Positions 30,984-36,441 of a stretch of 64,000 nt of DNA are shown piece by piece. A program made the translations under genes and the position numbers. Source of the DNA: Bdellovibrio bacteriovorus (GTDB lineage Bacteria; Bdellovibrionota; Bdellovibrionia; Bdellovibrionales; Bdellovibrionaceae); assembly GCF_001592745.1 (NCBI RefSeq), contig NZ_LUKD01000001.1:1955890-2019889 (forward strand), read 5' to 3'. The notes below the pieces were generated by a model. The model was not told where the DNA came from and searched no databases. It was given only the letters and a program-made list of their open reading frames with translations. The stretch's first letter is position 1; each line of letters begins with the position of its first letter.

Positions 30984-32729
30984 ATGTCTGACGAAAATAA
31001 TATTAACGGAAATCCGGGACAGGATGACTCTGTCGTTCTGATCGACTTCGCGCAAGTGGAAGAAGTCTCTCGCGTCTTTTTTGAAGAATCCAAAGAGATT
31101 CTTGAAGAACTCGACGCGCAAATCTTAAAGCTGGAAGACGCGCCTTCAGATCAAGATCAGATCAATGTGCTGTTCAGAAAAGTGCATACCATCAAGGGCA
31201 GCGTGGGTGCCGTGCCTGGGGGGCAACTACTAGGTTCTTTAGCGCACGAATTTGAAGCTCTTTTAACTCGAATTAAACGCGAAAATCACACCGTCACCAA
31301 AGAGTGCATTGATCTATTTCTGAAGAGTTCGCGTATCATGAAAGTTTTAGCTCAGGCCTTGCGGGACAAAAGTGAACTGTATCCCGAAGAACTCAGCGAG
31401 GCGATTGAACTTATTGCGAGCTACGGTAGCTTTGACTCACTCAGTGAGGCGGGGACCGCAGTCGCAAAAACTCATAAGTCCCGTCCGACAAGCCAGGGAA
31501 TGAGTGCTGATGAACAAGGCGTGTGGTTGTCGCTAAATCAATTGAATGAATTTTTGCGCCTTTCCGGAGAACTTTTGGTTCTGAAGAACTTCTTTCAGAT
31601 GATGAACCAAACGGTGAACTTCCGTTTGCAACCAGAATTGTTTGAAAGACGCCAAGCGGATTTTTCTCAGAACTTGAATAAGATCAGTGATCAGTTTCAG
31701 CACCAGGTGCAAAGTGTTCGAAAAGAAAAAGCCAGCGAAAGCTTTAAGTCGTTGCAATTGCTTGTACGTCAGGCCTCGACAGAGCTGAATAAAAACGTTC
31801 AGCTGGAAATCCTGGGTGGGGACCTGATGATCGATAAGGGCTTGGGACAAGATCTTTATGAAGCCCTGGTACACATCGCCCGAAACTCGATTGACCACGG
31901 TATCGAGGATCAATTTGAGCGGGCTCTTCAAGGCAAATCTCCGATTGGAAACCTAACTCTTGAAATTGAAGAAAAAAATAACACCATTCATCTGTCCTTT
32001 AAAGACGATGGTAAGGGTCTGGATAAAGAACGCATTCTTCAACGAGCACTGAAAAATGCTCTGGTCTCTGAAGCTGAAGTTTCGCAGCTTTCGGATGAAC
32101 AGATATATAAATTTATCTTTCACGCCGGATTTTCGACAAAAGACAAAGTCACGACGATCTCGGGCCGAGGCGTCGGTATGGATATCGTATTTGCCATCGT
32201 TGAAAAATATCAAGGAAAGATCCGCATAGAGAATACGCCAGGTCAGGGGGCCTCTTTCCGCCTTGAAATTCCAGTGCCTCAACACATTATGGTGGAAAGT
32301 GCGTTACTGTGCTCTTGGAGTGACTTCCGTTTAGCGGTGCCATTGACTTCGGTGGCTCACATCAGTTCTTGTCAAGAACTGCAAATGACGACGGTGAATC
32401 ATCTGCGTTTCTGTCAGTTCAGTGGATTGACGGTTCCGTTATTAAATTATCACGAGATCTTAAACCATCATGTATCGGCAGCAGAAGATTTGGTTCGTGG
32501 TTCCTCGGCCGTATTTATTAGAGTCAAAGAAGGTGTATTCGCTCTTCTGGTTGATCGCATTGAGGCGCAAACGGATCTGGTTGTAAAAGGCTTCGGCAAT
32601 ATCGTCAAAGAACAGAAAGGCTTTAAAGGCGTTTCTATTTTGGCGGACGAAAAAGTAACTTACATTGTCGACCCAGAAAAGATGATTCAATTCCTATTTC
32701 AGCTCGAGACTATGCAGGAGGCCGCATGA
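30984..32729 (+). CDS. cheA: CheA-type chemotaxis histidine kinase
   Basis: 581 aa. Hpt domain 27-130 with phospho-accepting H68 in KVHTIKGSVG; a helical dimerisation region at about 185-250; HATPase with HIARNSIDHG, DDGKGLD and ISGRGVGMDIV; and a CheW-like C-terminal domain from about 430. The stretch after the Hpt (about 135-180) is too short for a P2 domain, so response-regulator docking must differ from E. coli. Overlaps the next gene by 4 nt. Phosphoryl transfer would be to the receiver of the downstream CheD-CheB fusion or to a CheY elsewhere; none is encoded here. Confidence 0.88.
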   Translation: MSDENNINGNPGQDDSVVLIDFAQVEEVSRVFFEESKEILEELDAQILKLEDAPSDQDQINVLFRKVHTIKGSVGAVPGGQLLGSLAHEFEALLTRIKRENHTVTKECIDLFLKSSRIMKVLAQALRDKSELYPEELSEAIELIASYGSFDSLSEAGTAVAKTHKSRPTSQGMSADEQGVWLSLNQLNEFLRLSGELLVLKNFFQMMNQTVNFRLQPELFERRQADFSQNLNKISDQFQHQVQSVRKEKASESFKSLQLLVRQASTELNKNVQLEILGGDLMIDKGLGQDLYEALVHIARNSIDHGIEDQFERALQGKSPIGNLTLEIEEKNNTIHLSFKDDGKGLDKERILQRALKNALVSEAEVSQLSDEQIYKFIFHAGFSTKDKVTTISGRGVGMDIVFAIVEKYQGKIRIENTPGQGASFRLEIPVPQHIMVESALLCSWSDFRLAVPLTSVAHISSCQELQMTTVNHLRFCQFSGLTVPLLNYHEILNHHVSAAEDLVRGSSAVFIRVKEGVFALLVDRIEAQTDLVVKGFGNIVKEQKGFKGVSILADEKVTYIVDPEKMIQFLFQLETMQEAA

Positions 32730-33490
32730 GTGACTTCTTTAGTGATGACTTTACGGCCGAGCTGAAAGCCTATTTCCTTGATAGCGTCTGCAAAGAGGCC
32801 GACAAATTCATTGATTTAACTGATGAGTCGACGTTACGTCGTATTCGTAACGAAGTGGGCGAGCAAACTCGCGCTTGGGCGGTCGACGCGAAAACGAATG
32901 AGTTCGTGCATTTTTCTCAATGGTTGGAATTATTTGAAGAGCGCACTCAAAGTTTTAAAGAACCCCGAGAGCTGATCAAATCTCTTAAAACACTGAAGGC
33001 CTATGCGGAAGCGTTGATTCAGGAAAAGGCAGATACCGCGGACCATCCCGTGCGCTTTGCACTTTCGGCAGAGCTTCGACAAGACGTTCAGCTTCTTCAT
33101 TGCCGTTGGGGAAATCAGGACTTCGCGATTCCATTGCTCAATGTCGTCGAGATCAGCAGTCAGATTCCACTGTATCCCTTGCCGGATAAAAAAGACGGCC
33201 TTATGGGCGTAATCCCTTTTCGTGGTGAAGCTGTTCCCGTGATCAGCTTTCACGATCACGGCTTTAATCATTCTGAAATTAAAAACACTTTTTATGTTAT
33301 CTGCGAGCATCAAGGCGTTCGCTTTTCTTTGCAGGTGACTGAAACCGATGACTTGATGAGCTTAAAAGAATCTGAACTGTTGAATGTCGAAAGCCATTCT
33401 ACGGTTATTCAGACTGCCTTTGTGTCGAAATTTTTTATTAAAGGTAACAAGAGCATCATGATTCTAGATCTTGAAAAACTGGTGGCATGA
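32726..33490 (+). CDS. CheW-domain coupling protein with N-terminal helical extension
   Basis: 254 aa. Residues about 1-105 are helical and charged with no family I recognise; about 112-252 are a CheW-like fold (VQLLHCRWGNQDFAIPLLNVVEI, then LMGVIPFRGEAVPVISF and SIMILDLEKL). CheW links receptors to CheA at the inner membrane. A normal CheW is about 150-170 aa, so the extension is notable and could bring a second binding function. It overlaps cheA and the cheD-cheB gene by 4 nt each. Confidence 0.8.
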   Translation: MSDFFSDDFTAELKAYFLDSVCKEADKFIDLTDESTLRRIRNEVGEQTRAWAVDAKTNEFVHFSQWLELFEERTQSFKEPRELIKSLKTLKAYAEALIQEKADTADHPVRFALSAELRQDVQLLHCRWGNQDFAIPLLNVVEISSQIPLYPLPDKKDGLMGVIPFRGEAVPVISFHDHGFNHSEIKNTFYVICEHQGVRFSLQVTETDDLMSLKESELLNVESHSTVIQTAFVSKFFIKGNKSIMILDLEKLVA

Positions 33491-35052
33491 TGAATACACA
33501 TTATTTGTTTCCTGGAAAATTAGCGGCCTTTAAAGAAGAAACCGTGATTTCAACTTTGCTGGGTTCCTGTGTCGCCGTTGCGATATTTGATCCCACGACA
33601 AAAATTGGCGGTTTGAATCACTATCTTTTGCCTGAAGGTCTGCCAGAGGAAAGTCAGAATAGCCGCTATGGCAGCTACGCGATTCCTCAACTCATTGAAG
33701 AGTGCGTTCGCTTGGGTGCCAATCGCAGCCGGATGCAGGCTAAAATTTACGGTGGCGGGAACGTCATCAGTGTTTCACAACTTGGCGACGGCATTGGTAA
33801 ACGCAACATTGAAATCGCTGAGCAACTGATGCGCGAATTCAACATCCCGATCATCGAACGCAATGTCGCCGGTGAAAATGCTCGCACCATTAAAATGAAT
33901 ACATCCACATTTGAAGTGATTCATAACTCGCCTCGCGACACGGGTTCTGTGGATAAACCTGTGGACGTATCTGGCTTCAGACCCTTGTCTATAGCGAAAA
34001 ACGTGAAAGTGCTCGTTGTTGATGATTCGGCAACGGTGCGTACTCTTTTCACGAATATATTTACGAAAAGTGGTTTGGAAGTCGTAGGCTCTGCCGCAGA
34101 TCCTTACCAGGCTCGCGAAATGATTCTTAGTAAGAAGCCTGACGTGATCACCTTAGATATTGAGATGCCGAAGATGTCTGGCGTGATGTTCTTGGAAAAA
34201 CTGATGAAACATCATCCGATTCCTGTCGTCATGGTTTCTTCATTGGCAAGCACGGGTGAAGCGGCACTGAAATCTTTAGAACTGGGCGCAGTTGAATTCG
34301 TTCACAAACCTTCGCAGTTTGATCCCGCTGTTCTAAAAGATCTTGCCGCAATGCTGGTGGATAAGGTGCGGGCAGCAGCCTCGGTGAATGTGTTGAAGAG
34401 ATTAAAAGAAACTCCGCCCGTTGTTGAAATTAAGACGACAGCGCCTGTAAAAATGAATGTGCGAAAAGCGGCTGAACTAAAAGTTGTTGTTTTGGGTGGC
34501 AATGCGGGCAGTGCGGATGCCGTAGAAAAATTTGTGAAAAATTTGGCCGCCGACACACCTCCCGTCGTGGTTGCGTGCAGCACCGTCGCGAATTTCGCGA
34601 CAGCTTTTATTAGTAAGTTAAAACAAGGTTCGAAAGTGACTCCTATTCTTGCAAAAGACGGAGAGTTTTTAAGAATGGGTCACGTCTATTTTATTCCTGC
34701 TGAACATCACGGAAAAATTCAGACGGGTGGAACGGGGCCGGTGCTAAATATCGCTAAGGGCACGCCTGTTTCGTCGCAGCTACCTTCGGCCAATGTTCTT
34801 TTCCAATCTGCCGCGCTGTCTTATTCAAAAGGTGTTTATGCGGTTTTATTGGGAGGCTTCGGCGCTGACGGCGTAGATGGTCTTATTGAGGTGCAGAAAA
34901 AAGGCGGTGCCACTGTGGTGCAGCACCCAGATGAGGCACAATTCCCGTATGGGCCACAGAAAGCCATTGAACTAGGAGTGGCGGATGAGATACTTAAGGC
35001 AGAGATGTTGGCGCATCATCTGATGCAGTATCGAAACCAAAACTTATACTAG
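33487..35052 (+). CDS. CheD-CheB fusion with inactive-looking methylesterase domain
   Basis: 521 aa in one frame. 1-150 is CheD with its Cys-His pair (C28 in LLGSCVAV, H45 in GLNHYLLP), the receptor glutamine deamidase. 172-290 is a receiver (D179/D180, phospho-acceptor D224, K274). 328-515 is a CheB methylesterase fold (PSANVLFQSAA, GGFGADG), but the Ser of G-A-S-T-G-G is Asn339 (LGGNAGS) and the His of Q-H-M-P is Ser365; only Asp461 of the triad remains. CheD and receiver look functional; the methylesterase does not. No CheR is nearby. Confidence 0.88.
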   Translation: MMNTHYLFPGKLAAFKEETVISTLLGSCVAVAIFDPTTKIGGLNHYLLPEGLPEESQNSRYGSYAIPQLIEECVRLGANRSRMQAKIYGGGNVISVSQLGDGIGKRNIEIAEQLMREFNIPIIERNVAGENARTIKMNTSTFEVIHNSPRDTGSVDKPVDVSGFRPLSIAKNVKVLVVDDSATVRTLFTNIFTKSGLEVVGSAADPYQAREMILSKKPDVITLDIEMPKMSGVMFLEKLMKHHPIPVVMVSSLASTGEAALKSLELGAVEFVHKPSQFDPAVLKDLAAMLVDKVRAAASVNVLKRLKETPPVVEIKTTAPVKMNVRKAAELKVVVLGGNAGSADAVEKFVKNLAADTPPVVVACSTVANFATAFISKLKQGSKVTPILAKDGEFLRMGHVYFIPAEHHGKIQTGGTGPVLNIAKGTPVSSQLPSANVLFQSAALSYSKGVYAVLLGGFGADGVDGLIEVQKKGGATVVQHPDEAQFPYGPQKAIELGVADEILKAEMLAHHLMQYRNQNLY

Positions 35053-35061
35053 GATTCTTTC

Positions 35062-36441
35062 TTGGAACTTTCGAACTTTATTGGCGGGGAGTTCATCCCT
35101 GCCGAAAGTAAAAACACGTTTTCTAAATTCAATCCCTTTACTGGCGAAGTCTTGGCTCAAGTTTCATCTTCGGATGCAATGGATGTCATTAAAGCTTTAC
35201 AGATCGCCAAAAAAGCCGCGACAAGTTTCAAAGACAGTTCCTTAGAACAAAGAGCGACTTATTTAAGATCACTTGCGCAGGCTCTTCAAGAGGATGCCGA
35301 TCACATTGCTTACGAAGAAGCCCTTCATCAGGGGCTACCTCATGCTTTCGTATTAAAGAACAGCGTCGAAGTTTCCATTCGCATCTTGCAAGAGACTGCC
35401 GAAAGCCTTTTGCAATCGCAAGATCCTCAAAAGCTTTTTCAGCCCTCAGGCATTGTCGGTATCATCACCGCTTGGAGCTGTTCTTTACGTTTGATCGTAG
35501 AAAGACTTGCACCGGCACTCGCGGCAGGCAATGTGGTTCTTGTCAAAGTTTCTGAGCATTCTCCCATCACGGTAAAAGTTTTGGGCGAAGCTTTGCAAAA
35601 AGCTCAGATTCCCGCAGGCGTTATCAACCTTTTACAGGGAAATGCTGAGGTCGCGCAAATCATTGCCGGTCACCCCAGCATTCGCGCCGTAACCGCCGCG
35701 GGAAAAACTTCTACGTTAGAAGCCATTGCAAAAACGGCTTTGCCACAGTTCAAAAAATTACAGTTAAGTGGCGGGGCTAAAAATCCATCCGCTATTTTGG
35801 CCGACACGGATTATAAGAATCTTCTTCCCGAAATTCTTCGTCCCTTTTTAGTGGGGCAAGGACAGATGTGCTGGAATATATCTCGTTTGTTTGTCTTGGA
35901 ATCGTTTGCTCCTGATTTTTTAGAGGCAGTGAAGAACTATTTTGCTGATCTCAAGCCCCTGAAAGATCCTCGCGGAAATGAATCCTGGACACCCTTGATT
36001 TCACAGAATTCTGTTTCAGGCATCGATGAAAAAATTAAATTTGGCGTTTCAGAGCACGGTAAAATTTTTGTGGGCGGAAAAGCCGAAGGCGCGGGCTATT
36101 TTTACAAACCCACGGTGATGTTGGATCTTCCTAATTGCAGCGTCTTACAACAGGATGAACTGCATGGACCTCTTTTGTTGATCACGCCGGTTAAATATCA
36201 GCATGAAATTCAAAAGTGGGCCAACACTTCTTATGTCGCTCACTCCTCAGTGGTGTGGGGACCCGCGGAAAAAGTGATGAAGGTTGCTGCGGCTTTAGAC
36301 ACGGCCCATGTTTGGGTGAATTCTTGGATGAATGGTGAAACTACCACGATCTTCGGGCACAAACACTCGAGCTTTGGCAATCTCGACATGTCTTGGAATG
36401 GTTCCTTTTATTCGGATGTAAAAAAATTGGCGGGGACCTAA
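35062..36441 (+). CDS. Aldehyde dehydrogenase-family protein with substituted active site
   Basis: 459 aa, ALDH fold. The nucleophile C270 (GQGQMCWN) is kept and K162 of K-x-S-E is kept (VKVSEHSP). However, the usual P-W-N-F-P reads TAWSCS (oxyanion Asn replaced by Ser139) and the E of L-E-L-G-G-K is Gln234 (LQLSGGAKNP). These changes would weaken hydride-transfer chemistry or hydrolysis of the thioester. The enzyme may be an acyl-transferring variant or inactive. TTG start 7 nt after AGGA, 9 nt after the chemotaxis cluster; whether it belongs to that operon is unclear. Confidence 0.78.
   Translation: MELSNFIGGEFIPAESKNTFSKFNPFTGEVLAQVSSSDAMDVIKALQIAKKAATSFKDSSLEQRATYLRSLAQALQEDADHIAYEEALHQGLPHAFVLKNSVEVSIRILQETAESLLQSQDPQKLFQPSGIVGIITAWSCSLRLIVERLAPALAAGNVVLVKVSEHSPITVKVLGEALQKAQIPAGVINLLQGNAEVAQIIAGHPSIRAVTAAGKTSTLEAIAKTALPQFKKLQLSGGAKNPSAILADTDYKNLLPEILRPFLVGQGQMCWNISRLFVLESFAPDFLEAVKNYFADLKPLKDPRGNESWTPLISQNSVSGIDEKIKFGVSEHGKIFVGGKAEGAGYFYKPTVMLDLPNCSVLQQDELHGPLLLITPVKYQHEIQKWANTSYVAHSSVVWGPAEKVMKVAAALDTAHVWVNSWMNGETTTIFGHKHSSFGNLDMSWNGSFYSDVKKLAGT

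Follow-up and report, generated by a model that had tools for sequence, protein, structure and literature searches.

Why would a chemotaxis protein keep a CheB domain without the catalytic Ser and His of a methylesterase? The question arose in the window, a stretch of 64,000 nucleotides of Bdellovibrio bacteriovorus DNA, where one gene joins a CheD domain, a receiver and a CheB-like domain. The initial annotation had proposed that the CheB half has lost its catalytic Ser and His, and that the protein is a receiver-gated deamidase or a switch that binds CheD.

A three-domain fusion at the end of a chemotaxis module

The fusion gene is a single in-frame ATG open reading frame (Table 1), and Pfam recognised all three parts of its product: CheD (5.2e-24), Response_reg (4.4e-24) and CheB_methylest (2.4e-34). 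Its nearest named relative is from Bdellovibrio bacteriovorus strain kdesi (81% across the full protein). T23, C28 and H45 of CheD are invariant in the aligned type-B members that have a CheD domain, as are the acid pair D179/D180, the phospho-Asp D224 and the Lys K274 of the receiver in those that have a receiver. The open reading frame, the Pfam matches and the alignment thus bear out the annotated order CheD-receiver-CheB, with the CheD and receiver residues intact.

Table 1. Features of the fusion, its module and its flank in the window, with receiver-less fusions found in other genomes.
Feature	Position	Strand	Remarks
cheD::REC::cheBpsi fusion gene	33487..35052	+	521 aa
CheD domain (aa 5-148)	33499..33930	+	T23, C28, H45 present
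CheB-type receiver (aa 172-282)	34000..34332	+	D179, D180, D224, K274 present; best-conserved domain
Dead CheB catalytic domain (aa 331-514)	34477..35028	+	S164->N339, H190->S365, M283->F458, D286 = D461
cheA'	30984..32729	+	Hpt-kinase-CheW; one of the genome's two CheA genes; 4-bp overlap with cheW'
cheW'	32726..33490	+	CheW domain and N-terminal segment aa 1-118; 4-bp overlap with fusion
Aldehyde-dehydrogenase-like gene	35062..36441	+	next in most, not all, Bdellovibrio loci; flank marker outside module
Receiver-less CheD-CheB fusions	L208 3854-4954; L209 1224-2273; L210 4214-5317

The genes cheA', cheW' and the fusion follow one another with successive 4-base overlaps, and their order is the same in every locus of the genus that was read. 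The fusion comes last and has the only receiver of the module in Bdellovibrio. As first noted, the cluster in the window holds neither cheR nor cheY; a related genus has both in its homologous cluster (L115). In G003 the module lies within a full chemotaxis cluster, in the order cheW-cheY-cheA-cheR-cheA'-cheW'-fusion-cheB.

Two further observations concern the upstream genes. The cheA' of G003 (L115 3848-5965), G066 (L116 3464-5593) and G136 (L119 9762-11870) includes an additional receiver at its N-terminus, which is lacking from cheA' of the window. The N-terminal 118 aa of cheW' (window 32726-33080; L115 5965-6939; L116 5607-6938) look like a former Hpt domain, whose phospho-His is kept in G003 (VHTLKG) and G066 (IHSMKG) and lost in Bdellovibrio, G035, G136 and G088. 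This degenerate Hpt is a second degenerate partner within the operon of the fusion.

Loss of the esterase site in a retained CheB fold

We aligned the fusion with Salmonella CheB (1a2o). N339 falls on the catalytic S164, S365 on H190 and D461 on D286, and both the Ser and the His column are ungapped. The Ser is absent from every dead member, with Asn in its place; the His is absent too, its column reading S, A or T across the clade; the Asp is retained and invariant. Both annotated substitutions were thus confirmed against a CheB structure, and an alternative alignment supplying Ser or His was ruled out, as pairwise and multiple alignments concur at both columns.

We surveyed 144 genomes of the class and 369 of the phylum. 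Fusions with a dead triad form one group, found in 21 of the 24 genomes of the genus and in G035, G066, G003, G087, G080, G088, G136 and G273. The same substitutions had been expected to recur in homologues, and they do: in every distinct dead sequence read (~29), Gly-Asn replaces the Ser motif, Ser, Ala or Thr replaces the His, and the Asp is kept. All 86 distinct stand-alone REC-CheB proteins compared have Ser-His-Asp. The CheB tree unites the dead catalytic domains in a single, long-branched clade. One protein (L046) that a motif rule had called dead reads GASIGG, with the Ser, and is intact.

The dead domain is under purifying selection, with dN/dS of 0.03-0.07 within the genus (~0.05, the receiver being lower), values that are rough because several pairs approach saturation at synonymous sites. 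Within the genus it is conserved to the same degree as the CheD domain. The receiver is the best-conserved domain, with a mean identity of 0.90 in the genus and 54 of 111 columns invariant in 20 members. When 27 dead proteins were compared with 91 intact ones, only seven columns were fixed for differing residues, three of them at the active site (S164N, H190S and M283F), and the receiver and the fold core were kept or under tighter constraint in the dead group. The fixed changes cluster at the former catalytic cleft, where T165, G167, Q189, P192, T281, G313 and M314 are also lost. Asn339, Phe458 and Asp461 vary little or not at all; Cys364, next to the His column, is not retained.

Structure prediction agreed with the Pfam match in placing a CheB catalytic fold behind the receiver. 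The AlphaFold2 model of the fusion has a mean pLDDT of 85 and a pTM of 0.62, with low-confidence linkers. Foldseek found that its receiver and pseudo-CheB part (REC-CheBpsi) resembles full-length CheB (6ymz/1a2o; TM 0.82-0.86 by target), that the dead domain matches 1chd (rmsd 1.7 A), and that the CheD domain matches 2f9z chain C. The predicted placement of the domains is not independent evidence, as the alignment behind the model is mostly of ordinary CheB and CheD.

Because the dead domain forms one clade, is under purifying selection and carries fixed cleft changes, it is well supported by these sequence comparisons that the CheB half lost its esterase active site but keeps the CheB fold. 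This part of the annotation stands, while the receiver-gated deamidase or CheD switch is something that we infer. Fused homologues with both Ser and His, which had been named as evidence to the contrary, do exist in the phylum: both residues are present in the intact fusions read, eight with a receiver in one set and further ones besides. However, these have a separate CheD clade and their CheBs group with ordinary CheBs, so that the two trees do not favour a common origin of intact and dead fusions.

CheD without the module and CheB beside it

In two genomes of the same genus (G011 and G005) the flank order is unchanged, but the locus lacks cheA' and cheW', and the fusion has shrunk to a CheD of ~155 aa. 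A solo CheD also occurs in genus g19, where it adjoins or lies near the HIT gene found at the flank of the module in G035. The solo CheDs belong to the dead-fusion clade of the CheD tree, with that of G011 nested inside. Two apparent solo rows of the first CheD tree (L234 and L106) come from fused genes truncated where a locus or contig ends, and the test of solo origin excluded them. Parsimony gives four changes, but the AU test did not reject a single, one-clade origin of the solo form (p = 0.069), which makes it uncertain how many losses were independent. Where the module is missing, then, CheD persists but REC-CheBpsi is missing too.

Fusions without a receiver were seen as well. G088, a single MAG, encodes a 379-aa fusion of CheD and dead CheB (L121 7255-8391) followed by an intact REC-CheB. 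Receiver-less fusions of CheD to a high-scoring CheB, 350-368 aa long, occur in G036, G078 and G061 (Table 1). An alphaproteobacterial open frame of 605 aa (L054 4666-6480) has CheD in its C-terminal part; no Pfam match covers its first 440 aa, which may mean that translation starts further downstream.

The genome that holds the window has one other CheB (C1:1019041), which adjoins cheR and is intact (SSTGG, QHM, GMGKDG). It also has a single CheD, that of the fusion, two CheA proteins and 24 receptor matches. An intact REC-CheB gene directly follows the dead fusion in G003, G066, G087, G080, G088 and G273, and the CheBs that adjoin the fusion in members of the class group with the canonical Bdellovibrio CheB in the CheB tree, which points to catalysis having been left to the neighbour. 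Module and intact cheB are adjacent in these deeper lineages, whereas in Bdellovibrio they lie at separate places. The annotation had suggested looking for an intact cheB in the genomes with the fusion: a further CheB match was found in 27 of 29 dead-fusion genomes (catalytic residues were read in part of these further CheBs), the other two (G012 and G019) being drafts.

We also considered a CheC as partner of CheD. The 166-aa CheC-superfamily protein of this genome scores 73.6 bits as CheX versus 29 bits as CheC (CheC cut-off 22) and is better explained as CheX; a second match is weak and lies in a 315-aa frame. A consensus scan of 17 receptor frames, out of the 24 matches, found three QQ and three EQ methylation-like sites. 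Elsewhere in many Bdellovibrionota a divergent second CheD gene adjoins a protein with three CheW domains (L212-L226, for example L212 3830-5782); the window's own genome has a triple-CheW gene beside a receptor (C1:391006-393066), with no CheD at that place.

A gate for CheD and its alternatives

For the live CheD, the dead CheB half is probably a switch or a docking element. That REC-CheBpsi is, more specifically, a phosphorylation-driven gate or docking arm tying CheD to the second kinase is a reading of these sequences to which we give about even weight for and against. A two-domain switch of the CheB type would have been captured to set the availability of CheD as receptor deamidase or adaptor. 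CheA', the second CheA, coupled through cheW', would phosphorylate Asp224 of the receiver, and the REC-CheB interface would open on phosphorylation as in CheB. The dead domain would hydrolyse nothing, its remodelled cleft serving as a docking or masking surface that faces receptor helices or CheD, with demethylation left to the intact CheB. The output of the kinase would then decide the access of CheD to receptors; recruiting and withholding CheD are both compatible with the sequence.

Several observations favour the gate: the invariant residues of CheD and of the highly conserved receiver, the low dN/dS of a dead domain as conserved as CheD, active-site residues switched and fixed while core and receiver are retained, the place of the fusion and its receiver at the end of three overlapping genes, the joint absence of cheA'/cheW' and REC-CheBpsi in G011 and G005 with CheD alone in g19, and an intact CheB supplied next door or elsewhere. 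The genome has CheX and no clear CheC partner for CheD, and some of its 24 receptors have Q-containing methylation-like sites. There are also precedents. Phosphorylated CheB opens up between its receiver and its catalytic domain, and modelling predicts a receptor-tether site solely in that open, activated state (PMC8609364). The CheY~P of B. subtilis governs the access of CheD to receptors through CheC, and binding by CheD outweighs its deamidase activity (PMC3513319); the fusion could do likewise within a single chain, fed by CheA'. On the other side, the fusion of G088 lacks a receiver, although this is a single MAG; the CheD-CheBpsi interface is putative, in a model of modest pTM, with weak linkers, that was built on an alignment mostly of ordinary CheBs; a single solo origin would make the losses fewer; and CheX scores weakly as CheC, which leaves room for a separate CheD partner.

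A broader proposal, which we hold more tentatively, is a new adaptation branch in which a second CheA with its own CheW would phosphorylate the pseudo-CheB and so turn CheD on or off at receptors, as a one-chain counterpart of CheC/CheD/CheY~P. Such a branch would have arisen after a CheB copy fused and gave up catalysis, which a neighbour kept.

REC-CheBpsi could instead be a competitive brake and phosphate sink that drains CheA' and occupies receptor sites in place of CheB, with CheD mainly a receptor anchor. The intact receiver, the kept fold and the intact CheB in most genomes, adjacent in deep lineages, agree with this, but the remodelled substrate cleft (M283F, with T165, G167, P192 and G313 changed) does not favour plain substrate mimicry and the CheD catalytic residues are invariant; we consider it unlikely. 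Less probable still is a mere structural spacer or dimerisation arm, kept because it is fused: a retained fold with lost catalysis, and a G088 protein that does without the receiver, would suit it, but a spacer would not be expected to have the receiver as its best-conserved domain, nor to be missing where cheA'/cheW' are absent though CheD stays. Similarly improbable is that the former cleft has gained new chemistry or a new ligand site built on the invariant Asn and Asp; the cleft changes, Phe458 included, are fixed and not drifting, yet the clade has no conserved nucleophile, with S, A or T in the His column and Cys364 not kept. A decaying relic or a sequencing or alignment error, which the loss of catalytic residues as such might suggest, is refuted by identical substitutions in ~29 distinct sequences across genera and many assemblies, open frames and a dN/dS of ~0.05.

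To our knowledge, there are few descriptions of chemotaxis response regulators that retain a dead enzyme domain for regulation. In the open literature, with most subscription journals outside its scope, we found no description of a CheD-CheB fusion, a pseudo-CheB or the module cheA'-cheW'-fusion. The parts belong to known families; the combination and the conserved catalytic loss are new. Several families of this predatory phylum have preserved a dead CheB, with natural controls in the CheD-only relatives, the intact CheB next door and the separately formed intact fusion. Control of CheD by binding versus catalysis becomes directly testable outside Bacillus and, as the dead half probably serves the live half as a switch or docking element, the fusion is a natural test case for the rewiring of receptor adaptation.

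With CheB (PF01339 and an N-terminal receiver; 1a2o, 6ymz) the fusion shares fold and order, Asp286, the phosphorylation residues of the receiver and the predicted two-domain arrangement; it differs in that Ser164 and His190 are gone, the cleft is remodelled and the whole lies behind CheD. The type A fusions of other Bdellovibrionota (for example L112-L114 and L257-L266) have the same domain order, but their Ser-His-Asp is intact and both their CheD and their CheB clades are apart. With the CheD deamidase (PF03975; 2f9z chain C) the fusion shares the fold and the Thr, Cys and His residues, but its CheD shares one chain with a receiver and a dead CheB and is not paired with a free CheC. The likeness to the B. 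subtilis CheC/CheD/CheY~P loop would be that a phosphorylated receiver controls the access of CheD to receptors, whereas here, with no clear CheC, receiver and partner domain lie on the CheD chain itself.
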